Assembly (NCBI RefSeq): GCF_003259895.1
Contig: NZ_QLME01000020.1
Location: 1 to 58,764 of the forward strand
DNA from: Halanaerobium saccharolyticum
GTDB taxonomy: Bacteria > Bacillota > Halanaerobiia > Halanaerobiales > Halanaerobiaceae
Length of the DNA stretch: 58,764 nt
Reading direction: 5' to 3'
Shown: positions 39,070-54,967 of the stretch, in pieces
How the letters are laid out: each line of letters begins with the position of its first letter
Numbering within the stretch: the first letter of the stretch is position 1
The notes under the pieces: generated by a model
The model's input: the letters and a program-made list of their open reading frames with translations, nothing else
Database searches by the model: none
What the model was told of the DNA's origin: nothing
Program-made: the position numbers and the translations under genes

Positions 39070-39197
39070 GCATTATAAGCTTAGATTAAGCAAATAGTAT
39101 AATTAGAATAAAGCAGGAATCATTATTCTTTTAGCGAATCATATTATATTAATACTAAATAATGACAAATTTCGGTAATGATAGTGGAGGTGAGGAA

Positions 39198-40898
39198 ATG
39201 ACAGCAAAAAACAGAAAAAAATTAGGAGAACTATTAGTAGATCATGAATATATAAGCAGAGAACAGCTTCAGGAAGCTCTAGATAGATCGAAAAATTCAG
39301 ATAAAAAACTTGGGGAAATTTTAGTTGATCTGGGTTATGTGAAGGAAGAAGATTTGATAGAAGTTTTAGAATTTCAGCGGGGCATTCCCCATGCCGATCT
39401 TGATAAATATTTCTTTGATCCTTCTCTAGCAGAGCTAATACCTGAAAATATAGCCAGACGTTATTTAGCCGTTCCCATTGAAAAGAATAATCAGGGCAAA
39501 TTAAAAGTAGTGATGGCTGATCCAACTGATTTAATTGCAATAGATGATATAGAAATGTTGAGTAATCTGAGTGTTGATCCTCTGTATGGTGCGCCCAGGC
39601 AAATCCGTTCGGCAATTGACAGACTTTATGGGAATGATGATATCGATATTTCTAATATTTTCGAAGATTTTAATCTTGAGGGAATCAAAGATGTTTCGGA
39701 TAATCAAAATGAACAGATTTACGAAGAAGAAGAGCTCCGGGAAATGGTCGATGAAGCACCAATTATTAAACTTGCCAATTATATCATCAGTAAAGCCTAT
39801 CAAAAGGGAGCCAGTGATATTCATATTGAACCTGAGGATGATAAAATTAGGGTTCGTTTTAGAATAGATGGAGTTTTAAAAAAGGAAATGACAGCTCCTA
39901 AATCTTCACATCGGGCTTTAGTTTCCAGAATTAAAATTATAGCTAATCTGGATATTACGGAGCAACGAGTTCCTCAGGATGGAAGAATCAAAATGATTTT
40001 TAAGGGTGAAAAGCTTGATATGCGAGTTTCTACCCTGCCGACAATTAAAGGAGAAAAGATAGTTATTCGGCTTTTAGCCCAGAACACTAATCTTCTTGAT
40101 TTAGACAATTTAGGTTTAACTGATTATAATAGAAAAAAATTGGGGGAGTTAATAAAAAAACCAAACGGAGTTTTATTATTAACAGGACCTACAGGTAGTG
40201 GTAAATCAACTACACTCTTTGCAGCTCTAAATGAACTTAACAGTCCCCAGATTAATATGGTCACTATAGAGGATCCGGTTGAGTATCAAATTGCTGGTAT
40301 TAATCAGGTACAGGCAAAAGAAAAATCAGGCCTAACCTTTGCTAAAACCTTACGCTCGATTTTAAGGCAGGACCCAGATATCATAATGATTGGTGAGATG
40401 CGGGACCAGGAAACAGCTGAAATTGCTGTTCGATCTGCTTTAACAGGACATCTTGTTTTCAGTACTCTCCATACAAATGATGCTGTAAGTTCTATCACCC
40501 GATTAACTGATATAGGTTTAGCGCCATATCTGGTTGCAGCTTCTTTAAATGGAGTTGTTGCTCAGAGGCTTGTACGCAGGCTTTGTCCTTACTGTAAGGA
40601 AAAGAGAAAATTAGAAACAACAGAATTAAAATTTTTGGATAATCCAGATTTTGAAGTAGCATATTTTGCGGTTGGCTGTGAAAAATGTAATAATACCGGT
40701 TATGATGGTCGACTTGCAATTCAGGAAATCTTTGAAGTTGATAGTCAGGTTAAGGAAATGATCAGTAATAATCTTTCCAGAGAAAAAATTAGTGAATATG
40801 CTAAGAATAAGGGAATGATCACTTTAAAAGAAGATGGAATTGTAAAAATTAAAGCTGGAGAAACTGATGTTTCAGAACTTGAGAGAATAATATATTAA
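39198..40898 (+). CDS. pilB: type IV pilus extension ATPase PilB with MshEN domain
   Basis: This 566-residue hexameric ATPase drives pilin polymerisation. Residues about 8-145 form an MshEN (T2SSE_N) domain. Its two tandem motifs are KLGELLVDHEYISREQLQEA and KLGEILVDLGYVKEEDL with a later FQRGIP; the family consensus is RLGxxLxxxG...L..AL..Q, and this domain binds c-di-GMP in MshE. The first Arg of each motif is Lys here, and the first motif ends in Ser where the consensus has Gln. The ATPase core has Walker A GPTGSGKST (about 331), Walker B MIGEMRDQETAEIA and HTNDA. A four-cysteine zinc site (CPYC about 464, CEKC about 494) follows. The ATG at 39198 follows GGAGGTGAGGA; an upstream ATG at 39162 lacks a site. 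Confidence 0.95.
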   Translation: MTAKNRKKLGELLVDHEYISREQLQEALDRSKNSDKKLGEILVDLGYVKEEDLIEVLEFQRGIPHADLDKYFFDPSLAELIPENIARRYLAVPIEKNNQGKLKVVMADPTDLIAIDDIEMLSNLSVDPLYGAPRQIRSAIDRLYGNDDIDISNIFEDFNLEGIKDVSDNQNEQIYEEEELREMVDEAPIIKLANYIISKAYQKGASDIHIEPEDDKIRVRFRIDGVLKKEMTAPKSSHRALVSRIKIIANLDITEQRVPQDGRIKMIFKGEKLDMRVSTLPTIKGEKIVIRLLAQNTNLLDLDNLGLTDYNRKKLGELIKKPNGVLLLTGPTGSGKSTTLFAALNELNSPQINMVTIEDPVEYQIAGINQVQAKEKSGLTFAKTLRSILRQDPDIIMIGEMRDQETAEIAVRSALTGHLVFSTLHTNDAVSSITRLTDIGLAPYLVAASLNGVVAQRLVRRLCPYCKEKRKLETTELKFLDNPDFEVAYFAVGCEKCNNTGYDGRLAIQEIFEVDSQVKEMISNNLSREKISEYAKNKGMITLKEDGIVKIKAGETDVSELERIIY

Positions 40899-40921
40899 AG
40901 CTAGATTGAGGAGTGATCTGA

Positions 40922-41983
40922 TTGGAATTTGAAGAATTATTAAAAATAGTATCTCAGGATGATCAGATTTCTGATCTCCATTTAACTGTTTTTTCGCCAC
41001 CATATATTCGAAAAAACGGGAAATTAAGACCTTATGAAAAATATGATGGAGAATTAAGTGTCGAAGATACTGAAAAATTAGCTAAAGAAATGATGAATGA
41101 AAAACAATATAAAGAGTTTAAGGAAAAGGGAGAATTAGATTTTTCCTATAGAATCCCGGGCACATCTAGATTTAGAGTTAACGCCTATCATCAAAGAGGT
41201 AGTGTGGGAATAGCACTGCGGATTATTCCGAGTGAGGTACCTTCAATTGATGAGATGGGTTTACCAGAGGTTTTCAAAAAACTTGCCGGCCAGAGAATGG
41301 GCTTGATCTTAAGTACTGGTCCTACTGGAAGTGGTAAATCGACTACTCAGGCAGCAATTATAAACGAAATAAATCAAAATAGACAGGCCCATGTAATGAC
41401 CCTGGAAGACCCAATTGAGTATTTGCATAAGCATAATCAGAGTCTGGTTCATCAGCGTGAAGTGGGTAGTGATACAGATAATTTCAAGAGAGGTTTACGG
41501 GCCTGCTTGCGTCAGGATCCGGATGTGATTCTGGTTGGAGAAATGAGAGACTTAGAAACGATTCAGATTGCACTGGAGGCAGCAGAAACAGGACATTTAG
41601 TTCTGGCAACACTGCACACTAATAGTGCTCCAGCTACCATTGACCGGATTATTGATGTTTTTCCTGCAACTCAGCAGGATCAGATTAAAATCCAGCTGGC
41701 TTCAGTCCTCAGTGCGGTTATTGCGCAGCAGTTAATACCGACTAAAGATCAGAGCGGTCGGGTGGCTGCTTTTGAGATTATGATGGCTACTTCAGCCATT
41801 AGAAATATTATCCGAGAGGGTAAAACAAATCAGATTTATTCTGCTATTCAGACAGGTGGCCGCTACAATATGGTTACTATGGATAATTCGCTTTTAAAAT
41901 TATATCAGCGGGGAAAAATATCTCAAGAATCAGTCTTACACCACTGTAATGATATAAAATATGTGAATGAAAAATTACGTTAA
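40922..41983 (+). CDS. pilT: type IV pilus retraction ATPase PilT
   Basis: This 353-residue hexameric ATPase disassembles pili and powers twitching. It has Walker A STGPTGSGKSTTQA (about 137), HVMTLEDPIEYLH (Asp box), Walker B ILVGEMRDLETIQIALEAAE, the His box in HLVLATLHTN, and the PilT-specific C-terminal AIRNIIREGKTNQIYSAIQT. The TTG start at 40922 follows GAGGAG. It lies 24 bases after pilB and shares its transcript. Confidence 0.96.
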   Translation: MEFEELLKIVSQDDQISDLHLTVFSPPYIRKNGKLRPYEKYDGELSVEDTEKLAKEMMNEKQYKEFKEKGELDFSYRIPGTSRFRVNAYHQRGSVGIALRIIPSEVPSIDEMGLPEVFKKLAGQRMGLILSTGPTGSGKSTTQAAIINEINQNRQAHVMTLEDPIEYLHKHNQSLVHQREVGSDTDNFKRGLRACLRQDPDVILVGEMRDLETIQIALEAAETGHLVLATLHTNSAPATIDRIIDVFPATQQDQIKIQLASVLSAVIAQQLIPTKDQSGRVAAFEIMMATSAIRNIIREGKTNQIYSAIQTGGRYNMVTMDNSLLKLYQRGKISQESVLHHCNDIKYVNEKLR

Positions 41984-42013
41984 ATTTAAGTAAAGAGATA
42001 AGGGAGGTGCAAA

Positions 42014-43261
42014 ATGGCACAACTTTATAGTTATAAAGCTCGCGGTCAGTCCGGTCAGATCTTAAATGGCAGTATCGAAGCAGCCAGCAAAAAAGAGGTG
42101 GCAAAAGAGCTTCGGGATAAAAATTTACATGCTGTTTCCATTCAGGAGATCGAAGCTAAAGAAAAGCAGAAAAAAGACTCTAAATTTTCGCTGGCTATGG
42201 ATATTTCAGAGATAAATATCTTTGGTGGTGGCTATAAGATTGCGGAGTTGGCTAATTTTGCGCAGAGGCTTTCTGTTTTGATTGCTGCAGGAATCCCTCT
42301 GGTCAGATCGCTGAGTATTATTAAAAACCAGTCAAATATAAAACATGAAAAGGAGATGCTGGGCAAACTATTATCCAATGTAGAGGCAGGAGAAACTCTG
42401 TCTTATGCTTTACAGGAGCATCCTAAATATTTTCCTAAATTATTTGTCCATTTGATCAAAGCAGGAGAAACTGGTGGAGTTCTAGATGAAGTATTATCAG
42501 AATTAGTAGAATATTACCGCAAACGTGATAAAATTAATAAAGAAGTTAAGTCAGCATTATATTATCCGATAACTATAGTTATTGTAGCTATAGTAGCTGT
42601 CTTTATCCTGATGGGCTTTGTACTTCCCAATATTTTAGATATGCTGGTAAACTTTGGTGGAGAAATTCCGCTGCCAACTCAAATCTTAATTTTTGTCAGC
42701 AATATTATTTCTTCTTACTGGTGGGCAATCTTAATTGCTGCAGCTGGAGCAGGTTTTTTACTGAATTCTTATTTTAAAACTCCCAAAGGTAAATTAAGAA
42801 AAGATAAGTTTATGTTAAAAATACCTGTTATTGGTGATTTAATCAGAAAAGTTGTTATTGCCAGATTTGCCAGCACATTAGCTCTCTTAATTAAAAGTGG
42901 AGTTAATATCATAAATGCGCTGCCGGTAATCGAAGAAGTTGTAGAAAATGAAGTCTTTGCAGATATACTATTAGAAACCAGATTGAGAGTTAGAGAGGGT
43001 TCAACACTTTCGGAACCAATTAAGCAGAGTGGAGAGTTTCCACCAATGGTGGTTCAGATGCTCAAAGTTGGAGAAGAGAGTGGTAATATAGAGGATATGT
43101 TAAATAAGATTTCTAATTATTATGACATGGAAGTTGAAAATGCAATTGAGGGAAGTATCTCCTTAATTGAACCGGTTATGATAATTGTTTTAGCTGTAAT
43201 TGTTGGTGGAATTGTAGCTTCGGTTATCTTACCGCTGTTCAGTATTTACAGCAGTTTTTAA
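42014..43261 (+). CDS. pilC: type IV pilus inner-membrane platform protein PilC
   Basis: A 415-residue GspF/PilC protein with two repeats of the T2SSF domain (about 75-200 and 275-400), each ending in membrane segments (about 178-203, 227-250, 385-410). LANFAQRLSVLIAAGIPLVR and ARFASTLALLIKSGVNIINA are the two matching family motifs. It links the cytoplasmic motors to the pilus. It follows pilT by 30 bases and has GGGAGGTG upstream. Confidence 0.95.
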   Translation: MAQLYSYKARGQSGQILNGSIEAASKKEVAKELRDKNLHAVSIQEIEAKEKQKKDSKFSLAMDISEINIFGGGYKIAELANFAQRLSVLIAAGIPLVRSLSIIKNQSNIKHEKEMLGKLLSNVEAGETLSYALQEHPKYFPKLFVHLIKAGETGGVLDEVLSELVEYYRKRDKINKEVKSALYYPITIVIVAIVAVFILMGFVLPNILDMLVNFGGEIPLPTQILIFVSNIISSYWWAILIAAAGAGFLLNSYFKTPKGKLRKDKFMLKIPVIGDLIRKVVIARFASTLALLIKSGVNIINALPVIEEVVENEVFADILLETRLRVREGSTLSEPIKQSGEFPPMVVQMLKVGEESGNIEDMLNKISNYYDMEVENAIEGSISLIEPVMIIVLAVIVGGIVASVILPLFSIYSSF

Positions 43262-43306
43262 ATCAGAGTATTATTTAGCGAAAACTAATTTATGTAGCTC
43301 ACTTAA

Positions 43307-43335
43307 TTGTTTTTTATTTTTTGTAATGCAATAAT
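43307..43335 (+). promoter_or_regulatory. possible promoter for pilin gene
   Basis: TTGTTT (43307-43312) and AATAAT (43330-43335) are 17 bases apart in the 188-base gap before the major pilin gene. The match is weak, but a separate pilin promoter is common because pilin is needed in large excess. Confidence 0.3.
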
Positions 43336-43449
43336 TGAACAATACGAAAAATAGTTGTTGAATTTTGAGGAGGTGGTGCTTAAAACAAAAAAGATTGTCA
43401 TTGAAAGATTTTTATTAAATTTTTAAAATTATATGAGGAGGAAGAAAAT

Positions 43450-43872
43450 ATGAAAAAAATAAGAAATATTTTTAGTGGAAATGAAGGTTTTACTTTAATT
43501 GAATTGTTGATTGTTATTGTGATTTTAGGTGTGCTGGCAGCGATAGCAGTGCCAAACTTAGCTGGTTTGACTGATACCGCTGATGAAGCTGCGGTTAAAG
43601 CCAATATGCGGACTCTAATGACAGAGTTAGAAGCTCAAAAGGCTCAGGATTATGATTTTTCAACATTAAATACTAATGATGTTGCAGGATTGGCAGGTAC
43701 TGGCGACTTTGCTGGAGCTGAAGCACTGGCTGATCAGGAAGTAAGTTTTGGTACTGAAACAGTTACTGTAGCTGAAGGGGATTTAACAACTTATACAATT
43801 ACTACAGATGAAGATTACGAGGATGGAGAAATAACAATTAGTGATGGTGCATTAACTCAGACTCAGGAATAG
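43450..43872 (+). CDS. pilA: type IV major pilin (prepilin)
   Basis: This 140-residue prepilin has a short leader ending in Gly, then GFTLIELLIVIVILGVLAAI, the class III signal with Glu at +5. The prepilin peptidase encoded downstream would cut between G and F. The rest is short and rich in Ala, Thr, Asp and Glu (TVAEGDLTTYTITTDED), with no cysteine pair for a D-region disulfide. The ATG follows AGGAGGA. Its position after pilB-pilT-pilC and the stem-loop after it suggest it is the main pilus subunit, set for high expression. It is acidic, as expected for a salt-tolerant host. Confidence 0.92.
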   Translation: MKKIRNIFSGNEGFTLIELLIVIVILGVLAAIAVPNLAGLTDTADEAAVKANMRTLMTELEAQKAQDYDFSTLNTNDVAGLAGTGDFAGAEALADQEVSFGTETVTVAEGDLTTYTITTDEDYEDGEITISDGALTQTQE

Positions 43873-43895
43873 ATGTTTACTAGGTGATTTTAGTC

Positions 43896-43942
43896 GGGAG
43901 GTTAAGAAAAAAATAAATATTTTAATAAAATCTTGGCCTCCT
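43896..43942 (+). terminator. stem-loop after major pilin
   Basis: GGAGGTTAAGA (43897-43907) pairs with TCTTGGCCTCC (43931-43941) over 11 pairs including two G-U, around a 23-base AT loop. No T-run follows directly, so it may act as a partial terminator or an mRNA stabiliser that raises pilin yield over downstream genes. The rest of the gap up to 44228 is AT-rich with no other clear signal. Confidence 0.5.
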
Positions 43943-44228
43943 GAGTTATATTAATAAAATTTTTAGAGAAAATTAAGATTGAAATTTATATTTACAAGTA
44001 TAAAATCTATTGAGTAGGAAAATTTTTTAAGGAGAATGAAAATATTTAAAATTTGAATTTTACAGAAAGTATATTGATATTAATTGGAAACTAAATTATT
44101 TATAGTCGGGAGAAAATTTGATAAAAAAAGCTTTAATATTTAATTGTTTGAAATTAAAATTATATAGATTTAAAGGTTATTTAAGCTTGGGTTTGGGATA
44201 AAAATAGTGAGTGATTGGACGTGAAATT

Positions 44229-44972
44229 ATGCTGATAGTTTTTTTTCTGATAGGTTTAGTAATCGGCAGTTTTCTAAATGTAGTAATTTATAGATTACCT
44301 GAAGGTAAATCAATTATTTATCCACCATCTCATTGTTCGGATTGTGGACAAAAGTTAAGCCCACTGGAACTAATTCCAGTTTTAAGTTATATTTTTTTAA
44401 GAGGTAAATGCAAAACATGTGGAACAGATATTTCAATCCGATATCCTATTATTGAATTATTAACCGGAATTATATTTATTATTAATTATTTTTGTTTTTC
44501 TGATTTGATTATCTTGGCTGCAGGTTTGATATTTTCTTCTTTATTAATTGTTTTAACTATGATTGATTTTGATCATCAAATATTACCTGATAAATTGACA
44601 TTAGGTGGACTTATAGTAGGATTATTATTTAGTTTTTTTAGATCTGATATATCTGTAATTTATTCTTTAGCGGGGATAATGGCAGCCGGAGGTTTATTAT
44701 TTTTAATAGCTTATCTAAGTAAAGGTGGTATGGGTGGAGGAGATATTAAAATGATGGCAATGGTTGGCAGTTTTACTGGGCCAATAATTGCTGTTAGTGC
44801 AATTTTTTTAGGAGCTTTAATTGCCTTGGTTGCCCATCTACCTGGTGTTATTTCTGGGGAAACTGGTATGAAAACTAAATTACCTTTTGGACCATTTTTA
44901 GCTGTGGCTTCTTTAATACTCTGGTTTTATTCAGAGGAACTATTTGCTATGTATTTATCACTTATTCTTTAA
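44229..44972 (+). CDS. pilD: prepilin peptidase PilD
   Basis: A 247-residue membrane aspartyl peptidase that cleaves and N-methylates prepilins. It starts MLIVFFLIGLVIGSFLNVVI and has the zinc-binding CSDC...CKTC loop of bifunctional PilD. The catalytic Asp motifs are TMIDFDHQILPD and GGMGGGDIKMMAM. About six to eight membrane segments are predicted. I choose the ATG at 44229; a GTG at 44211 would add six residues. Neither has a strong ribosome site. It processes the five or more prepilin-like proteins around it. Confidence 0.94.
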   Translation: MLIVFFLIGLVIGSFLNVVIYRLPEGKSIIYPPSHCSDCGQKLSPLELIPVLSYIFLRGKCKTCGTDISIRYPIIELLTGIIFIINYFCFSDLIILAAGLIFSSLLIVLTMIDFDHQILPDKLTLGGLIVGLLFSFFRSDISVIYSLAGIMAAGGLLFLIAYLSKGGMGGGDIKMMAMVGSFTGPIIAVSAIFLGALIALVAHLPGVISGETGMKTKLPFGPFLAVASLILWFYSEELFAMYLSLIL

Positions 44973-44989
44973 TGAGAGGAGAAGCCTAA

Positions 44990-45487
44990 ATGAAGATTTT
45001 AAAAAATAATCAAGGATTTACATTAGTAGAAGTTATATTAGCTTTTACAATAATAATTCTCTTAATTACAACATTTGCTGGTGCTGTTCTTGTTGGATTG
45101 AGAAGTGAAAGAACTACAAGAAATATAGATCTGGCTTCTTCAATGTCTGCAAGCATATTTGATTATTTAGCTAATTCTAAAAATCTAAAAAATATTATAA
45201 ATTCAGGTGGAGTTGATTTAAGCAGTGGAAGTTATTCAAATGATATAAGAGGTTTTATAGAAGGTGATTTAGATACTGTTTCGCCATCTGTAATTAAAGA
45301 TCAACTGTCAGATATTTTTGATGATTATTTAGATAATAATAGATTTAATTATTTAGAAAAGTCAGAAATAGAAATTTCTGATTCAGAAATTATTGATGAT
45401 TTATATAATATTAAATTAACTATTTTTTGGGCGGAAGAAGAGGGAGAAGGGACATACGAAATCGAAACAATGATGGGTGCTGATTAA
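44990..45487 (+). CDS. minor pilin (PilV/GspI-like)
   Basis: A 165-residue prepilin-like protein with cleavage site and helix NNQGFTLVEVILAFTIIILL (Glu at +5 present). The remainder is acidic and unlike named families. It follows pilD by 17 bases with GAGAGGAG upstream. Minor pilins of this kind prime pilus assembly at the tip; the exact class cannot be fixed from sequence alone. Confidence 0.82.
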   Translation: MKILKNNQGFTLVEVILAFTIIILLITTFAGAVLVGLRSERTTRNIDLASSMSASIFDYLANSKNLKNIINSGGVDLSSGSYSNDIRGFIEGDLDTVSPSVIKDQLSDIFDDYLDNNRFNYLEKSEIEISDSEIIDDLYNIKLTIFWAEEEGEGTYEIETMMGAD

Positions 45488-45488
45488 A

Positions 45489-46262
45489 ATGAAAAATAAT
45501 AGAGGCTTTACTTTAGTTGAAGTGCTAATTACCTTTACAATTTTGATAATTGTTCTGACTTTGATGGGCACTATTTTAGTTCAGTCATTCGATATTTTTA
45601 GAGATAGTACAGAACGGGTTAGTAACAATCGTTTAACTCAGATTATGATTGAAGATATTAGTCAAAATATTAGAGAGTCTAAATATTTTGATTTTACAAC
45701 TACTGATTCCTGGAAGTTTTGGTATGATGAGATTAATGGTGATACTGAAAAAGCAGATTTTGAAATCTCAAAAAATAATAATGAATTTGAATTGAAAAAG
45801 AAAGAAACTGAAGATAGTAATTTAAAAATAGAAAGAGTCCTAGAAAATGTACTAGAATTTAAATTAAAAAATTATGTAAGTGAGAAAATTATTCTTTATA
45901 AAATGGACAAAGATGGAACTGGTAATATCGAATTTAAAAATGGAAACACAATAGGTTTTGAAGATGACAAATTGAAATTCACTGATGATATTAAAATAGA
46001 ATATGTAGATAGTAGTGGTACTAATCAAGAAAAAAATATTACAGGCGGGACCGAAATAAGGCTTATTGAAGGTAATGAGATAAGATTGGAAGATAACACA
46101 AAAATACATCGAGATAATGTCAGGAAAATTATAGTTGATGGTACAGAAATAAATTTTAATAATAATGCATTTGAATTTAAAATAAGGATAGATTTAGGAA
46201 ATAATAATGTTATTGAAGAGTTAAAAACTGTGTATCCTCGTAACTTGAGTTTTTGGAGGTGA
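45489..46262 (+). CDS. minor pilin (PilW/GspJ-like)
   Basis: A 257-residue prepilin-like protein starting MKNNRGFTLVEVLITFTILI, with Glu at +5. A middle stretch of about 100 residues (about 125-225) is unusually polar and repetitive (TGNIEFKNGNTIGFEDDKLK, then similar short beta-like units), which may be an inserted surface domain. The ATG at 45489 overlaps nothing useful upstream except the end of the previous gene (its stop is at 45487). It is the third prepilin-like gene of the operon. Confidence 0.82.
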   Translation: MKNNRGFTLVEVLITFTILIIVLTLMGTILVQSFDIFRDSTERVSNNRLTQIMIEDISQNIRESKYFDFTTTDSWKFWYDEINGDTEKADFEISKNNNEFELKKKETEDSNLKIERVLENVLEFKLKNYVSEKIILYKMDKDGTGNIEFKNGNTIGFEDDKLKFTDDIKIEYVDSSGTNQEKNITGGTEIRLIEGNEIRLEDNTKIHRDNVRKIIVDGTEINFNNNAFEFKIRIDLGNNNVIEELKTVYPRNLSFWR

Positions 46263-46267
46263 TCATT

Positions 46268-47965
46268 ATGAAAAAAATTATTAAAAATAATGAAGGTATA
46301 GCTTTAGTAATGGTTATTTTATTATTAGCTTTGGTTGGAAGTTTAGCTACCACTATGATGCTTATGTACTCTTCCAATATAGATTTGGTACAGGATGCAA
46401 CTGCACGAAGCCAGGCATTTTATGCAGCTGAAGGAGGAGTGAATTATCTTGATTTAAAATTGAATGAGTTTTATCAAGATAATATTGCTGGTATAGGTTT
46501 TTTCTCAGCTGAAAAAATTTATGAAAAGCTGCAGGATTTAGAAAGTCAATTTGAAGATGATAATCTTAGAGTTGCAGGTTATGATATTAGTATTGAATTT
46601 AATCCTGCTCCAAATTATGAAGAGTCGAATATATATATTTATAAAATAACAGCTGATAATGGAAGTGAAAGTGAAACTATTACTGTTGAATATCTAATAG
46701 AACATTTAATAGATTACTTTAAATATTCTAGGTTTGCAAATAAAGTAAATATCGAGGACTCTTATATTGGATATGAATTTTCTTGGAATCGTCGACCTCG
46801 ATATTATAATGATAATAATATAGATGATCACGCATTTGGAACTGCAGAAGTTTCATATAGTAAATGGTCTAACAAATCTTCTTATTTTGAGGGAGAGTTA
46901 GTAGTTCATAATAATAAAGTTTATATTAGTAAAAATGATTACTCATCTAATGAGGCAGTAGAACCAGGTGAAAATAATTGGCAGAACAATTGGCGAATTG
47001 ATAATTTTTTTAAAGCATGGGACACTAATAAGTCTTATAAAGCAAGAGAAAAAGTTATTTATGATAATGAAATTTATACCAGTAAAATTAATGATAATTT
47101 AACTGAACCAGATCTAGATAATTTTAATAGTAATTATTGGGAAATAAATGACCCAGATTTAGCAAAACAGGATTTTTCAGCTAGTAAAGTTGATTATAGT
47201 CAAATGGCATTACCTAGTCCTGATGATTATGATTATCAAGAAAAAATAATAGAAGCATTCAAACAAAAGCTTAAAGATAAAGGAGGATATACTTATAAAG
47301 ACCTAGAGCCTGATACAAACAAATACCCTCAATATGATCCTAATGAGAGATATTCTTTAGATGATATGATGATTTACGATAATAAAGTATATAAAGCAGT
47401 TAGAAGAGATGATAATTATAATTCAGCTGTTTGGAAAGAACAATCTGCTTCACAATTGTTTTTAGATGATACTGATTCTAATTTTACTGAAGGTAATTAT
47501 GTTTATATAAAAGGTGATTTTGATCCTAGTTATGAAGAAATAAAATATTTTAATAAAACAGATGAAGTAATTCATATTTTAGTAGAGGGAAAAATTAGCC
47601 CACAAGCAAATGTTTCTTTACGAAATAATGCTAATATTATTTTTTATACTACTTCAGATAGTGTTTCTTTTGAAAATGGTTATATTACAATGCCATCAAA
47701 CTCAGATATTAATTTAGCTTATTTTGCTCCTTTTGCCACTTATACAAGTAATGGTTTTTTCGGTGGATATGCTTCTTCAATGATTTTTAATGAAATTAAT
47801 TTAAAAAATGAAAAAATAACATCTGTTGAAACTTATAGTGAAAACAACCCATTACGCGGAGGAATAGATCCAGATATTGCAAAGTTAACTAGAGCTCATG
47901 GTGATCCGGACTATGAAATTGATAAAACCGGACCTAGTAGAGTATATTGGTCTGTAATGCGATAA
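46268..47965 (+). CDS. PilX-like minor pilin with three CBM5/12-like repeats
   Basis: This 565-residue protein begins MKKIIKNNEGIALVMVILLL, a PilX/GspK-type signal in which Glu at +5 is replaced by Met, then has FYAAEGGVNYLDLKL, the block common to PilX proteins. In the middle are three repeats with the pattern W/Y-x-N-x-x-Y...V-x-Y-x-N-x-x-Y...W at about 197-244, 247-293 and 353-392. Examples are KVIYDNEIYTSK and MMIYDNKVYKAV, which look like chitin/cellulose-binding CBM5/12 modules. It would sit at or near the pilus tip. The ATG at 46268 follows GGAGGTGATC exactly. It is the largest prepilin in the operon. Confidence 0.85.
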   Translation: MKKIIKNNEGIALVMVILLLALVGSLATTMMLMYSSNIDLVQDATARSQAFYAAEGGVNYLDLKLNEFYQDNIAGIGFFSAEKIYEKLQDLESQFEDDNLRVAGYDISIEFNPAPNYEESNIYIYKITADNGSESETITVEYLIEHLIDYFKYSRFANKVNIEDSYIGYEFSWNRRPRYYNDNNIDDHAFGTAEVSYSKWSNKSSYFEGELVVHNNKVYISKNDYSSNEAVEPGENNWQNNWRIDNFFKAWDTNKSYKAREKVIYDNEIYTSKINDNLTEPDLDNFNSNYWEINDPDLAKQDFSASKVDYSQMALPSPDDYDYQEKIIEAFKQKLKDKGGYTYKDLEPDTNKYPQYDPNERYSLDDMMIYDNKVYKAVRRDDNYNSAVWKEQSASQLFLDDTDSNFTEGNYVYIKGDFDPSYEEIKYFNKTDEVIHILVEGKISPQANVSLRNNANIIFYTTSDSVSFENGYITMPSNSDINLAYFAPFATYTSNGFFGGYASSMIFNEINLKNEKITSVETYSENNPLRGGIDPDIAKLTRAHGDPDYEIDKTGPSRVYWSVMR

Positions 47966-47989
47966 ATAAAATAGAAAGGAGATGAGCAT

Positions 47990-49081
47990 ATGGCAGTAAG
48001 CCCATTATCATTAATCAGAGGAATAAAATACACAAGCATTGATTTTGGTCATAACAGCATCAAATATTTAAACAGCAGAGTAAAAAACGATAAGTTTAAA
48101 TTACTTGCTTCTGGACGCAGAGAACTTCCAGCAGGTACAATATCTGATGGTAAAGTAGTTGATACTCATCTTTTAACAAAAATTATAGCAGATATTTTTA
48201 ACGAAAAAAATATGGACCCTGGAGTTTTAATGCTTACTCCTGCTTCCGGACAGGAATTTGTCAGAAACATCAAAATGCCAGTAATGCCGCGAGAGGAACT
48301 AAAAGAAGCATTAATCTGGGAGGTTCAGGATTTCCTGGATTTAGAAGCAGAAAAGATTGCTTTAGATTATATTATTTTAAACGAAATGGAAGGCCAATAT
48401 GAGCTACTGGTAACAGGTATCTCTAAAGATATTTTAAATGGTTATTTAGAGATTTTTGAAAATAATATGTTAAAAGTTAAAGTTTTTAATTTAGAAGATA
48501 TGGCATTAATATCATTATTAACTAAAAAAAATAAATTAGAAAGCCCATCATTAATTTTGGATATTGGAGCCAGCAGTTCTAAGATTTTAATTGCAGCAAA
48601 AAACAAGTTATTTTTAAGCAGAGAAGTAGATACTTCTGGTAATAATTTCAGCAACTTATTTTTAAATGAAGAAATCAATCATGAAGAAGCTGAAATTGAA
48701 AAAAAGAAGTTTAAATTTTTTCCCGGGCAGGCAGGAGAAGAAAATCTTGACTTAATGCTTTCAGATATTAATACTCCCAATACACTTCAGAAAAAGGTTA
48801 AAGATCTTGCAGACGAGATAATTTTTGAGGTGAATCGTTCTCTAGAATATCATAACGAAAGACACTCAGAAAATACAGTAGATGATATTTATTTAACTGG
48901 TGGAGGATTACTTTTAAATGGATTAGTTGATTACTTTAAAGAAGAGATAGATAATAAAATATTTGTTATTGATCCTCTAAAAGATTTTCAAATAAAAGAA
49001 AATTCTAATCAAATAAATAAGCACTTTTTAGCTACTGCTGCTGGTACTATTATGAGTGAGGTGATGCATAATGAGAGTTAA
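47990..49081 (+). CDS. pilM: type IV pilus assembly protein PilM
   Basis: This 363-residue cytoplasmic actin-like ATPase links the motor complex to PilN. It shows TSIDFGHNSIKYLNSR at the N-terminus, the second phosphate loop LILDIGASSSKILIA and the adenosine motif DIYLTGGGLLLNGLVDYF. The ATG follows AAAGGAGATG. Its end overlaps pilN by 11 bases. Confidence 0.93.
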   Translation: MAVSPLSLIRGIKYTSIDFGHNSIKYLNSRVKNDKFKLLASGRRELPAGTISDGKVVDTHLLTKIIADIFNEKNMDPGVLMLTPASGQEFVRNIKMPVMPREELKEALIWEVQDFLDLEAEKIALDYIILNEMEGQYELLVTGISKDILNGYLEIFENNMLKVKVFNLEDMALISLLTKKNKLESPSLILDIGASSSKILIAAKNKLFLSREVDTSGNNFSNLFLNEEINHEEAEIEKKKFKFFPGQAGEENLDLMLSDINTPNTLQKKVKDLADEIIFEVNRSLEYHNERHSENTVDDIYLTGGGLLLNGLVDYFKEEIDNKIFVIDPLKDFQIKENSNQINKHFLATAAGTIMSEVMHNES

Positions 49082-49598
49082 TCTCCTGGAAAAAGATGAA
49101 GGTTTAAAAATTCAGTGGCTGGAAATTGTAGTGGTTTTAATTATTATTTTTACTTTTGCAGCACCTGCTTTTAATTATTATCTTAATTATGTAGAAGTAA
49201 AAAATTTAGAGCAGCGTCAAAGTAATTGGGAAACTAGACTGCAGGCTTTAAGACCGGAAGAAGATCGTTATTACCAACTGGAGGAAGAGATAGCCAATTT
49301 TAGTCTTCCAGAAAGGGTAGAACTCGAAAAATACACAGTGTCGCCTTTTTTCTTAGAATTTTCTGAAATAATTGGTAATGATATTAATTTTAATAACTTA
49401 GATTACAGCAGTGGTCAGATAAATATTACTGGTAATGCAGAAGATCTTAGATCTTTATTAGATTTTAGTTCTCGTATTTTTAATTCAGAAGTTTTTTCTA
49501 TTATTTCCTTAGAGAGATTTCAGAATAATGAGCAGTTAGAATTTAATCTGGTAGTAGAACTTGATAATAGGGAGAGAGGGGTGATTTATAATGAGTAA
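49071..49598 (+). CDS. pilN: type IV pilus assembly protein PilN
   Basis: A 175-residue protein with the conserved N-terminal MRVNLLEKDEG that docks in PilM, one membrane segment (about 19-40) and a coiled coil then a ferredoxin-like periplasmic domain. It overlaps pilM upstream and pilO downstream (8 bases), so the three are made together. Confidence 0.9.
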   Translation: MRVNLLEKDEGLKIQWLEIVVVLIIIFTFAAPAFNYYLNYVEVKNLEQRQSNWETRLQALRPEEDRYYQLEEEIANFSLPERVELEKYTVSPFFLEFSEIIGNDINFNNLDYSSGQINITGNAEDLRSLLDFSSRIFNSEVFSIISLERFQNNEQLEFNLVVELDNRERGVIYNE

Positions 49599-50139
49599 TT
49601 TATCCAGAAGAGAGAAAATACTGCTTTTTATTTTATTTGTAACAGTAGTATTTTTTGCTTATTATTATCTGCTCTATCAACCTATTCAGGCGGAACAGCA
49701 GAATTTAGAAAATCAAATAGCTAATACTCAGAGCGAATATACAACTGTTCTCTCGCGAGTTAATCAAATTGAAGATTTAGAAAGAGAATTGGCAAATTTA
49801 AAGAGGGAAAGAGAAGAGCGGCTGGAAGTTGTGGTCAGGGAAGCAGAAGAGATTCTGGCAGCTATTGATTTTTTTGCAAGAGAAAGTGATGTTGAGATTA
49901 GAAGTTATCAAAAAGGAGATGCTGAAAATGGCTATCCCTTTACTTTTAATCTGGAAGGTGAATATTTTGAATTATTATCCTTTTTAAAAATGCTTGATAA
50001 CTGGGATTATCGTTTAGTTGTAGAGAACCTATCTGCTAATAACATTCAGCAGGGAGAAAATTTAATAGGGGTAACTCTTAATTTATTTTATCACCAATCA
50101 GATGAATTAAGAGATTTTATAGAAAGAGCTGCGGGGTGA
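49591..50139 (+). CDS. pilO: type IV pilus assembly protein PilO
   Basis: A 182-residue bitopic protein with a membrane segment at about 10-28 (ILLFILFVTVVFFAYYYLLY), a coiled coil (about 33-80) and a ferredoxin-like domain. FYHQ near the end and LEGEYFELLSFLKMLDNW match PilO proteins. It partners with PilN in the periplasm and bridges to the secretin via PilP. Confidence 0.9.
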   Translation: MSNLSRREKILLFILFVTVVFFAYYYLLYQPIQAEQQNLENQIANTQSEYTTVLSRVNQIEDLERELANLKREREERLEVVVREAEEILAAIDFFARESDVEIRSYQKGDAENGYPFTFNLEGEYFELLSFLKMLDNWDYRLVVENLSANNIQQGENLIGVTLNLFYHQSDELRDFIERAAG

Positions 50140-50143
50140 TTAA

Positions 50144-50584
50144 ATGAAGCACTTAAAATTGTTACTTTTTATAGTATTATTTATTACACTTAATAGCACT
50201 GCCTTTGCTTTAAACCTTGATGTGGATAATGATTTAAATAATTTTGCTAAGGAAAATTTAGTGAATGAAAATCTAACTCAAAATTTAAATAACCCATTTT
50301 TTCTAAAAGAGGAGGAAGTTGAATTACAAACTCCTCCACCAAATATGGCTGAAAATAATCTTGAGATTAGTGAAGAAATTGAGGAAGTAGATGCTGATCC
50401 TGAAATCACAATAAATGGTGTTATATCAGCTTCTAATTCGAGATTGGCTTTACTTATTAGCTATCAGCAGGAAAAACACCTGCTTGAAATTGGAGAGAGT
50501 CTTGATGGTTATAAATTAACAGCTTATCAGAATGGAGAAGCTACATTTATAAATGAGGGAAGAGAAATTATAGTTTTATATTAA
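50144..50584 (+). CDS. PilP/GspC-like pilus lipoprotein-type protein
   Basis: This 146-residue exported protein has a signal peptide (about 1-22, no lipobox Cys) and a disordered acidic middle. A C-terminal homology-region domain follows (ITINGVISASNSRLALLISY, LLEIGESLDGYKL), as in PilP and GspC, which bind the secretin N0 domain. It lies between pilO and the secretin, which is where PilP is encoded. Low overall similarity keeps this at moderate confidence. Confidence 0.72.
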   Translation: MKHLKLLLFIVLFITLNSTAFALNLDVDNDLNNFAKENLVNENLTQNLNNPFFLKEEEVELQTPPPNMAENNLEISEEIEEVDADPEITINGVISASNSRLALLISYQQEKHLLEIGESLDGYKLTAYQNGEATFINEGREIIVLY

Positions 50585-50616
50585 ATTCTAGATGATATTG
50601 ATTGGAGGCAAGGTTA

Positions 50617-52491
50617 ATGATAAAAACAAAAAAAGTTTTAATATTATTTTTATTGATCATGATTTTTTTCTCAGCAGCAGCTGCTGCCGGACCCCAGGAT
50701 AAAATAGAAAATTTAAATTTTAAAAACACAGATATTGTTGATGTTTTGAGGGCAATTGCAGAAGTGGCAGATGTTAATTTAATTACTGACAGTGAAATTT
50801 CTGGAAACATAACAGTTAATTTAAAGGATATTACTTTTGAAAAAGCTTTAGATTTAATTACTGAAACCAGGGCAATCAGCTATAAGTGGGATGATAATAC
50901 TGTAGTGGTAGCCTCACCTGAGAGACTGGATAGTATTTATGCTAATATTGTGACTGAATTTGTAGAAGTTGATTCCAGTGACTTTGATAACATAGGTACT
51001 ATGGTCAGAGAACTTTTCCCGGAAACACAGATTACTTTAGATCCTACCCGCAGACAGTTTATATTAAAGGGAGAAGAGGAGAATATTGAAGAAATCAGGG
51101 AAATGATAAATCGGTTAGACTCTGCTAGAACTTTGGAAGAAATTGAAAGTAGAGAGAGAACACAGGAATTTGAAGAAAAAGAAATTGAAATTTATAGTGA
51201 AAGTTATAGCGTTTTAAATTCAGAGTTAGAAGATCTGCACTCCAAATTAAGAACTGTTAATTCAAACTTGACTTATAAGATTAACCCTTTAACAGAAACA
51301 ATTACAATAAGTGGAGAAAAATTTCTAGTTAAAGAAGCTATCTCCATGGCCCAGACCTATGATCAGAGTTTAGAGCCGGAAACAAGAAATATTAGAGTTG
51401 ATTATGTGGATACTGAACAGATAACTGAGATAGTTGGTAAATTTTATCCTGAGATTCAGCTTCATGTTAATGCCAAGCGTAAAGAAATTATTATTAATGG
51501 ATCTAAAAATAAGCTTGATGGAGTAGCAGGATTGATTAAAGAAATAAATAGGCCTCAGTATCAGGTTGTAATTGAAACCAGAGTAGAGGAAATATCCTCA
51601 AATTTAACAAGAGAAATTGGAATGAATTATTCTGATTCAATGGGTGTAGGTATTGGTGATATTCTAATTGAACGAAACACAGATCTTGATAAAATAGAAA
51701 GTTTAACTTATAAATGGCCTGAAATTTTTAGATTGCTAGATACATCTTCTGACTCTAAAACTCTAGCCAGACCTAGTTTAATGACTCTAAATGGAGAAGA
51801 GGCTAATTTATCAATAACTGAAGAGGAACCCTATGCTATTCAAGAAGAAGAAGATGGAGAAATTACAACTACTTGGGAATATGTTGAAGCAGGAGTGAAA
51901 TTAACTTTTACCCCCTGGATTACAGAAAATGATGAAATCGAACTCAAAATTGCACCAGAAGTAAGTAGTTTTTATGAAATTAATCCAGATAGATATTCAA
52001 ATATTGATACTACACCACCTCCAGCAACTAAAACTAGAAGTGTAGAAACGACTTTACGCCTAAATAATAATGAAACATTCGTTATTGGTGGGTTGATTCA
52101 GACTGACGGAGATGGAACTATCACTAAAATACCAATTTTGGGTGATATACCAATTTTGGGTGAACTCTTTAAATCTAGATCAAAAAGCACATCTACTAAT
52201 GAATTATTAATTTTTGTTACACCAAGAATAATAAAATATGGTGAAGAAATAGATAATAGAAATATAATTAAAAATGAGAGTATAGATCTAAAAGCTCAAT
52301 TTAAAAATTCTAAAGAAAAAACACAGGAAAATAACATAAAAACAAATAATGATCAAAAAATTATTCAAGAATATCTTCAAGAAAGAAATAAAACCAGAAA
52401 AGAAATTCTCGAGTCACTAAAAGACGATAACCAGGAAAAGGAATATCAGGAATTAACCTCTGAGGAGTTAGAAGAAATTCTAAACAACTAA
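50617..52491 (+). CDS. pilQ: type IV pilus secretin PilQ
   Basis: A 624-residue outer-membrane channel. It has a signal peptide (about 1-24), an N0/STN domain (about 30-100, NFKNTDIVDVLRAIAEVADV), two secretin N-type modules, and the secretin core. The core has VVIETRVEEISSNLTREIGM, ARPSLMTLNGEEANLSI and the closing KIPILGDIPILGELFKS then NELLIFVTPRII. The last 90 residues are a polar tail. The ATG at 50617 is 8 bases after GGAGG. A secretin implies an outer membrane, a key clue to the organism. A terminator follows. Confidence 0.94.
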   Translation: MIKTKKVLILFLLIMIFFSAAAAAGPQDKIENLNFKNTDIVDVLRAIAEVADVNLITDSEISGNITVNLKDITFEKALDLITETRAISYKWDDNTVVVASPERLDSIYANIVTEFVEVDSSDFDNIGTMVRELFPETQITLDPTRRQFILKGEEENIEEIREMINRLDSARTLEEIESRERTQEFEEKEIEIYSESYSVLNSELEDLHSKLRTVNSNLTYKINPLTETITISGEKFLVKEAISMAQTYDQSLEPETRNIRVDYVDTEQITEIVGKFYPEIQLHVNAKRKEIIINGSKNKLDGVAGLIKEINRPQYQVVIETRVEEISSNLTREIGMNYSDSMGVGIGDILIERNTDLDKIESLTYKWPEIFRLLDTSSDSKTLARPSLMTLNGEEANLSITEEEPYAIQEEEDGEITTTWEYVEAGVKLTFTPWITENDEIELKIAPEVSSFYEINPDRYSNIDTTPPPATKTRSVETTLRLNNNETFVIGGLIQTDGDGTITKIPILGDIPILGELFKSRSKSTSTNELLIFVTPRIIKYGEEIDNRNIIKNESIDLKAQFKNSKEKTQENNIKTNNDQKIIQEYLQERNKTRKEILESLKDDNQEKEYQELTSEELEEILNN

Positions 52492-53875: not shown

Positions 53876-54967
53876 ATGAAATACAATAATCAAGATGGGG
53901 TAACCCTGGTAATGATTTTAACATTATTAGTTGTTGCTTCAATTTTAATTGGATCACTATTTACTGTAGTTAGAAGCCATATTAATACAGTTTCCAGGGA
54001 GGAAGCTAATGTAAAAGCTTTTTATAACGCTGATTCTGGAGTAGAGTTTGTAAGAGCAAGTGCCGAGGATATTAATTTTACCTCTTTGAGTGCAAATCAA
54101 AAAGAGTATTTACAATTTAATGAGGATAACAATTTGGTGTTTGATAATCCTGAATATTTTTTTGATGAAAATAATTTAGATTTAAATAACTCAAAGCTTA
54201 AATTTTCTTTAAAAGCAATAAAAAATAACGATGTTATTAATTTTACTTCAAGGGGAAGCTATCAAATTAATGGTGAGGAAATTACAAAGGATATTAATTT
54301 TGAGCTTGAATCTAACAGAGAAAATTTCAATAAACTATTCAATGTTAGGCCAGCTAGTGATGATCTAGACTTAAAAGGAAAAGCATCAAGTTTAGATGAT
54401 ATACTTCTTAATCTGTCTGAAGAAATCTATCCTGACTGGGATGACTGGCAGATTCTGAGAGATAAAGCTGATAACTGGTCTAATATAAAGAAAAATGGTA
54501 ACTGGAACACCTATACGAGTGTTATTGCTAAAACATCCGGGAATTTAAAATTGAATAATAAAGATACTTTTGTTAATTCTATAATTTTTATAGATGGAGA
54601 TCTAACTATTGGACCACAGACCGAGTGGGAAAACTCGCTTATTATTATCAATGGGAATTTAAAGGTAAATGGATTTCCTACTCACGGAATAAATAATTCA
54701 GTCTTTTTCACTTACAATACAGATACTCTGCATTTAGCTGGTAATTTTCCAGATGATATTGAACTGGGAATTGACTTCAATAATTTACCGGCTGAATTTG
54801 ATCAGGTAAAAGATAAACTGTTGATTTTTAGACTTGAAACTTTTTCTATTGAAAAAGATGATGACTCAGAGCAAGAAAATCTGTATATTATAACTATAGA
54901 GAAGTGCAGACAGGAAATTTGTGAAGAAGATGTAACCTTAAGCCAGCAGGTTCTTCGTAGAAATTGA
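53876..54967 (+). CDS. PilX-like minor pilin, second copy
   Basis: A 363-residue prepilin-like protein starting MKYNNQDGVTLVMILTLLVV, with Met at +5 instead of Glu, and FYNADSGVEFVRASAED matching the PilX/GspK block (compare FYAAEGGVNYLDL of the earlier protein). The rest resembles bacterial surface beta-helix sequences (LIIINGNLKVNGFPTHGINN), and a late pair of cysteines (KCRQEIC) occurs near the C-terminus. It has AAAGGAG upstream and a terminator after. It is set apart from the main operon by the EAL-HDOD gene and may be an alternative tip protein. Confidence 0.75.
   Translation: MKYNNQDGVTLVMILTLLVVASILIGSLFTVVRSHINTVSREEANVKAFYNADSGVEFVRASAEDINFTSLSANQKEYLQFNEDNNLVFDNPEYFFDENNLDLNNSKLKFSLKAIKNNDVINFTSRGSYQINGEEITKDINFELESNRENFNKLFNVRPASDDLDLKGKASSLDDILLNLSEEIYPDWDDWQILRDKADNWSNIKKNGNWNTYTSVIAKTSGNLKLNNKDTFVNSIIFIDGDLTIGPQTEWENSLIIINGNLKVNGFPTHGINNSVFFTYNTDTLHLAGNFPDDIELGIDFNNLPAEFDQVKDKLLIFRLETFSIEKDDDSEQENLYIITIEKCRQEICEEDVTLSQQVLRRN

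Follow-up and report, generated by a model that had tools for sequence, protein, structure and literature searches.

Little is known of how anaerobic bacteria that are not pathogens select the targets to which their type IV pili attach. The tapirins of Caldicellulosiruptor are surface adhesins from a type IV pilus locus and bind plant polysaccharide; to our knowledge they have not been described as CBM5/12 proteins. In type IVa pili the tip complex is made up of the minor pilins H, I, J and K, and is capped by a subunit that lacks Glu5 (PMC10191384). The grafting of lectin-type or other modules on to tip pilins is an established adhesive strategy, and the modular pilins of Streptococcus sanguinis, with their grafted binding domains, act as adhesins (PMC8179133); CBM5/12 is not among the frequent modular-pilin architectures named in the passage of that paper on which we draw. 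PilB and PilC of S. sanguinis are large minor pilins, likely located at the pilus tip, in which an N-terminal pilin module is followed by a distal module that is not pilus-specific, a vWA domain in PilB and a lectin module in PilC (PMC8179133; PMC9934059).

Here we describe a protein of the same general design, the product of a pilX-like gene of Halanaerobium saccharolyticum, in which CBM_5_12 was found as the distal module. Members of the genus have frequently been reported from brines of oil fields and shales. The window, that is the whole stretch of DNA analysed, comprises 58,764 nucleotides of contig NZ_QLME01000020.1.

The pilX-like gene and its pilus operon

Positions 39162-52491 of the window hold a complete type IVa pilus operon, within which the pilX-like gene closes a gspI-gspJ-pilX block:

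39162 to 44972, + strand: pilB, pilT, pilC, pilA and pilD (pilC, pilA and pilD assigned by position and sequence)
44990 to 45487, + strand: GspI-like minor pilin (N_methyl)
45477 to 46262, + strand: GspJ-like minor pilin (N_methyl)
46268 to 47965, + strand: pilX-like gene, a GspK/PilX-type minor pilin with CBM5/12-fold modules, 565 aa
47990 to 52491, + strand: pilM, pilN, pilO, pilP and pilQ (pilN and pilP assigned by position; pilQ is the secretin)

The open reading frame begins with the ATG at 46268 and its stop codon ends at 47965. The parts of its product are as follows:

46268 to 46297, + strand: class III leader-like peptide MKKIIKNNEG, recognised from the sequence, with a hydrophobic helix next (helix 8-72 in the model)
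46298 to 46753, + strand: pilin module, residues 11-162, common to the non-CBM orthologues at the same locus (hhalign 99.3%, E 2e-20, residues 4-162)
46856 to 47002, + strand: R1, CBM5/12 repeat 1, residues 197-245, the best conserved of the three
46940 to 46942, + strand: Y225 of R1, invariant, at the position of ChiA1 His681
46958 to 46960, + strand: V231 of R1, at the position of ChiA1 Trp687, a key residue for chitin binding (HMMER alignment)
46979 to 46981, + strand: W238 of R1, invariant, near the third CBM5 binding aromatic (CjCBM5 Y296; placed by sequence)
47009 to 47158, + strand: R2, CBM5/12 repeat 2, residues 248-297
47324 to 47446, + strand: R3, shortened CBM5/12 repeat 3, residues 353-393, without the loop
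47447 to 47962, + strand: C-terminal domain, residues 394-565, conserved in the CBM-bearing orthologues and mostly without a confident model

The leader MKKIIKNNEG runs into the hydrophobic helix IALVMVILLLALVG, and the mature position +5 is occupied by Met instead of Glu. The GspK model (NCBIfam NF037980) matches residues 9-69 (E 3.8e-6) with 26.7 bits, short of its equivalog cut-off of 130, and PilX_N (PF14341) gives 10.8 bits, below its gathering cut-off of 25.5 (23.4 for the H. salsuginis orthologue). The initial annotation, made from the sequence alone, had described a PilX/GspK-type N-terminus and hence display on a pilus; the GspK match agrees with the former, though far under the equivalog cut-off and with PilX_N sub-threshold, and the complete operon around the gene supports the latter. 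The Met at position +5, the GspK-type N-terminus and the I-J-X gene order together favour a capping subunit. From the operon and the missing Glu5 we infer that the product is probably a large pilus subunit located at the pilus tip.

Three further features of the operon were observed. PilB (39162-40898) carries an MshE-type cyclic di-GMP-binding motif (NF053729, 73 bits), which suggests cyclic di-GMP control of pilus extension. A second PilX-like gene lies after pilQ (53876-54967) and stands alone here; in the related genome G001 it is followed by gspI- and gspJ-like genes (L040 15910-17770). Between pilA and pilD (43873-44210) the window lacks a polytopic protein of about 580 residues and a second pilin, both of which are encoded there in the relatives whose loci extend over this stretch (L040 4348-6585).

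CBM5/12 repeats and a possible sugar-binding site

Pfam CBM_5_12 (PF02839) matches the whole protein in three stretches with 35.5 bits (E 1e-8; gathering cut-off 26.2), and the three orthologues also pass this cut-off. A profile built from seven CBM5/12 sequences outside the protein's own family gave 36.1 bits; when the repeat region was shuffled 2000 times, the highest score reached was 8.6. A profile that includes the repeats found these three places only across the 3.31-Mb genome. A plain PF02839 search of the genome missed the pilX-like gene, and absence from such a search is therefore weak evidence. A first scan for related loci likewise returned nothing and a profile-based scan located the orthologues; phmmer of the whole protein against the PDB gave no matches.

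Models of the full-length protein made with AlphaFold2 from four orthologues were poor (mean pLDDT 55), and the R1-R2 model was good (mean pLDDT 79, with most blocks at 82-91). By Foldseek and VIA-align, R1 and R2 each match the CBM5/12 modules of chitin deacetylases, SgChiC and SmChiB, with Z of 6-7 and rmsd of 1.5-2.6 over about 46 residues for several such domains; among the chitin-deacetylase and chitinase CBMs, 4nz4 gave Z 7.0 (rmsd 1.5 over 46) and 4tx8 gave Z 6.5. These Z values are middling, yet the matches span nearly the whole of a small domain and agree with the independent sequence result. The R1 and R2 models also match proteins of phage tails and contractile injection systems (8fqc, 9rkv and 7b5h). 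Residues 44-154 are pilin-like in the model (6qvf, Z 5.5), and 2opd was matched over residues 48 to 565 (Z 5.9). The C-terminal domain is largely below pLDDT 50, and no tapirin or other beta-helix adhesin was prominent in the fold search of such a model. A CBM5/12 fold is thus well supported, as a prediction, for R1 and R2 and not for R3.

Much of what the initial annotation had claimed for this region stands. Its three repeats at 46856-47443 are present at the positions given above, the CBM5/12 family label is borne out by the Pfam score and the predicted fold, and the fold it proposed is that predicted for R1 and R2. The arrangement differs, however, in that only R1 and R2 form a tandem; R3 lies about 53 residues from R2 and has lost its loop, with a length of 42 aa where that of the orthologues is 55-68 aa. 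The annotation had further asked whether the aromatics of its pattern lie on one exposed face. In CBM5 the Tyr that follows the first turn and the Trp at the close belong to the hydrophobic core (Y265 and W299 of CjCBM5), and binding is by a consecutive Y-W or W-W pair with a third aromatic (PMC8449059). The Y...Y...W pattern matches the core positions, and the aromatics cited are therefore not those of the binding face.

At the position of the CBM5 aromatic pair the aligned sequences read ND in R1, IN in R2 and RR in R3, so that the pair is absent from all three repeats. The residues named for chitin binding by ChiA1 are Trp687 together with His681, Thr682, Pro689 and Pro693 (PMC2265269); the equivalent of Trp687 is V231 in R1 and Thr in R2, and is deleted in R3. 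The loop of R1 has the same length as that of ChiA1, with Y225 at the His681 position and W238 near the third aromatic, and both residues are invariant in all orthologues. Invariant columns make up 53% of R1, 25% of R2, 16% of R3 and 55% of the C-terminal domain, the most conserved part, and the loop positions of R1 that lie outside the core show no variation among orthologues as low as 51% identical overall. To judge from the alignment, the canonical chitin site is gone from the repeats and chitin binding is not supported; an altered site in R1 is possible, as is adhesion to polysaccharide by the protein. The case also shows that a CBM family label should not be taken to predict chitin binding once the binding residues are lost.

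Exchange of the gspI-gspJ-pilX block and recurrence of pilin-CBM5/12 proteins

Three-repeat orthologues were found in three other genomes, with 51-70% identity; the closest named relatives found were Halanaerobium congolense, H. salsuginis and Halanaerobium sp. MA284. In other Halanaerobium species the pilX at this place, flanked by gspJ and pilM, has nothing but the pilin module in common with the present one (residues 4-162; hhalign E 2e-20). The idea that a conserved distal domain had gained CBMs by insertion was considered and rejected, as the profile comparison with these non-CBM alleles aligns no residues beyond that module. Against the close relatives G001 and G009, pilT, pilC, pilM, pilN and pilO are 87-98% identical, whereas gspI, gspJ and pilX are only 24-33% identical; against H. 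congolense, gspI is 88%, gspJ 81% and pilX 64% identical. The replaced segment has sharp limits relative to G009, DNA similarity breaking off close to the pilD end (44957) and returning at 47969, four bases past the pilX stop (loci L041, L040 and L018):

44958 to 47968, + strand: gspI-gspJ-pilX block, replaced as a unit relative to G009

Positions 44252-46744 have 88% DNA identity to H. congolense, and stretches of the rest of the locus have 77-81%. In H. salsuginis the gspI-gspJ-pilX set is present twice, in tandem (L019 4246-9656), and the pilX of the first set, which is the other one, has DUF7305 and weak, below-cut-off matches to CBM_5_12 and CBM_5_12_2, with a YY pair. The simplest reading of these sequence comparisons is that the three genes pass as one unit from one Halanaerobium species to another, and joint exchange of gspI and gspJ with pilX is what would be expected of interacting subunits. 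The same pilus with swapped tips offers a natural experiment for binding, biofilm formation and fouling.

CBM5/12 repeats were sought with two profiles in 398 genomes sampled evenly from the phylum; both profiles contain Halanaerobium repeats, and the second also contains repeats of three of the new pilins. The first found CBM5/12 repeats in 9 genomes and the second in 15. Besides the Halanaerobium orthologues, at least four CBM5/12 proteins in this sample start with a pilin N-terminus: L045 (272 aa; N_methyl 29.5 bits, CBM_5_12 75.5 bits), L046 (512 aa; PilX-like N-terminus judged by eye), L048 (196 aa; N_methyl 34.3 bits, CBM_5_12 26.2 bits, equal to the cut-off) and L071 (327 aa; pilin N-terminus judged by eye). 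Each has one to several repeats, several of which retain a W-W, W-Y or Y-Y binding pair. The remaining CBM5/12 proteins seen were chitinases of large genomes, a phage-like protein and secreted proteins. With these four further pilins the combination is recurrent, and the differing pilin types suggest that the fusions arose independently. No described case of a pilin-CBM5 fusion was found in the open-access literature. We tentatively raise the possibility that pilins with CBM5/12 arrays are a recurrent, undescribed adhesive class in the phylum, of which the Halanaerobium member sits in an exchangeable gspI-gspJ-pilX cassette, so that one recombination could re-target the pilus of a whole species, and in which the modules may have evolved towards a new, non-chitin glycan.

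Possible function and comparison with known systems

The position of the gspI-gspJ-pilX block in a complete type IVa pilus operon makes a modular tip minor pilin the best reading. Our best explanation, to which we give about an even chance, is that the protein belongs to the tip of a retractable type IVa pilus and that its CBM5/12-fold modules contact polysaccharide, with R1 as the main contact. The N-terminal pilin module and the GspI- and GspJ-like pilins from the two genes just upstream would jointly cap the pilus, the distal modules would touch a polysaccharide surface, be it exopolysaccharide, cell envelope or a particle, and PilT retraction would then draw the cell to that surface. Contact would most likely be made by R1, at a non-canonical site in the neighbourhood of Y225, W238 and the EAVEPG loop, and R2 and the shortened R3 would be mainly extra or vestigial modules. 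Both the glycan as ligand and the identity of this candidate site are inferred from the evidence above. The superior conservation of R1, including loop residues outside the core, speaks for R1 as the contact module, and the repeated joining of CBM5/12 to pilins, several of which keep the binding pair, speaks for adhesion. Against this explanation, the canonical residues are missing, the same fold occurs in phage tails and injection systems, where it may be structural, the gene shows no co-occurrence with a depolymerising enzyme, and the full-length model is poor.

The last of these points but one derives from the polysaccharide enzymes of the genome, in which the initial annotation had suggested a search for chitinases. 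No GH18 exceeded its cut-off in the genome; a weak sub-threshold match (L031, 550 aa) looks to us, by its sequence, like a YngK-type (GH10-like) lipoprotein. GH20 was not found in the genome, GH19 gave no match there and none in the control genomes, and the PF00150 match examined is a GH1 enzyme. On the absence of GH18 over cut-off and of GH20, and with PF00150 matching a GH1, chitin use was rejected; nothing in the glycoside hydrolase content points to chitin. The genome does hold a strong GH10 xylanase (L055 1006-3045, G000:C16; 679 aa, secreted-looking, with extra domains). GH10 and the CBM pilin do not, however, co-occur over 14 family genomes, the carriers G005, G011 and G013 being without GH10 and the non-carriers G001, G004 and G009 having it, and xylan is thus not favoured as the target either.

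These results leave the chitin- or cellulose-binding pilus of the initial annotation, acting in the classical CBM5/12 mode, very improbable: the family assignment and the fold agree with it, as does the fact that the best profile matches are modules of chitin deacetylase and chitinase A1, but neither the CBM5 aromatic pair nor Trp687 (for their roles, PMC8449059 and PMC2265269) is present, and the genome has no GH18 over the cut-off and no GH20. The same losses, in all three repeats, would be expected if the modules were structural spacers or a scaffold that extends the tip without binding sugar, any adhesion then residing in the C-terminal domain. The poor conservation of R2 and R3, the truncation of R3, the 55% invariance of the C-terminal domain and the use of the fold in phage tail and injection-system baseplate proteins all fit such a role, which we nevertheless consider rather unlikely, as it leaves the invariant R1 loop residues unexplained at 51% overall identity and as other pilin CBMs retain their binding aromatics.

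A different emphasis is possible, in which the three-gene tip cassette varies mainly for phage escape or kin recognition and the CBM fold is one interchangeable tip shape without a fixed glycan ligand. The divergence of gspI, gspJ and pilX between near-identical backbone pil genes, the sharp DNA breakpoints, the duplicated tandem cassette of H. salsuginis and the distal parts that cannot be aligned between alleles are consistent with it, but exchange also fits a change of adhesive target, and we judge this to be distinctly unlikely.

The adhesive tip pilin that we prefer can be set against several known systems. With the GspK, PilK and PilX tip pilins it has in common the type of N-terminus, the missing Glu5 and the gene order I-J-K/X; it differs in its size of 565 aa, in its distal CBM5/12 modules and in failing to reach the PilX_N and GspK cut-offs. 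R1 shares with the CBM12 of Bacillus circulans ChiA1 (1ED7) the fold, the core Y/W pattern and a loop of identical length up to the EP motif, and differs in having V231 for Trp687, which is absent from R2 and R3, and Y225 for His681. The fold and the tandem arrangement of R1 and R2 recur in the chitin and COD deacetylases of Vibrio (4NZ1 and 3WX7), and the fold and core residues in the CBM5 modules of SgChiC, CjLPMO10A and SmChiB, whose Y-W or W-W pair no repeat retains. Whereas the S. sanguinis pilins carry vWA or ConA-like lectin modules, the modules here are of the CBM5/12 fold and belong to a diderm type IVa pilus with PilMNOPQ. The pilX-like protein is a CBM5/12-bearing addition to the known modular type IV pilins, and both its place in an exchangeable tip block and the recurrent pairing of pilins with CBM5/12 add to its significance.
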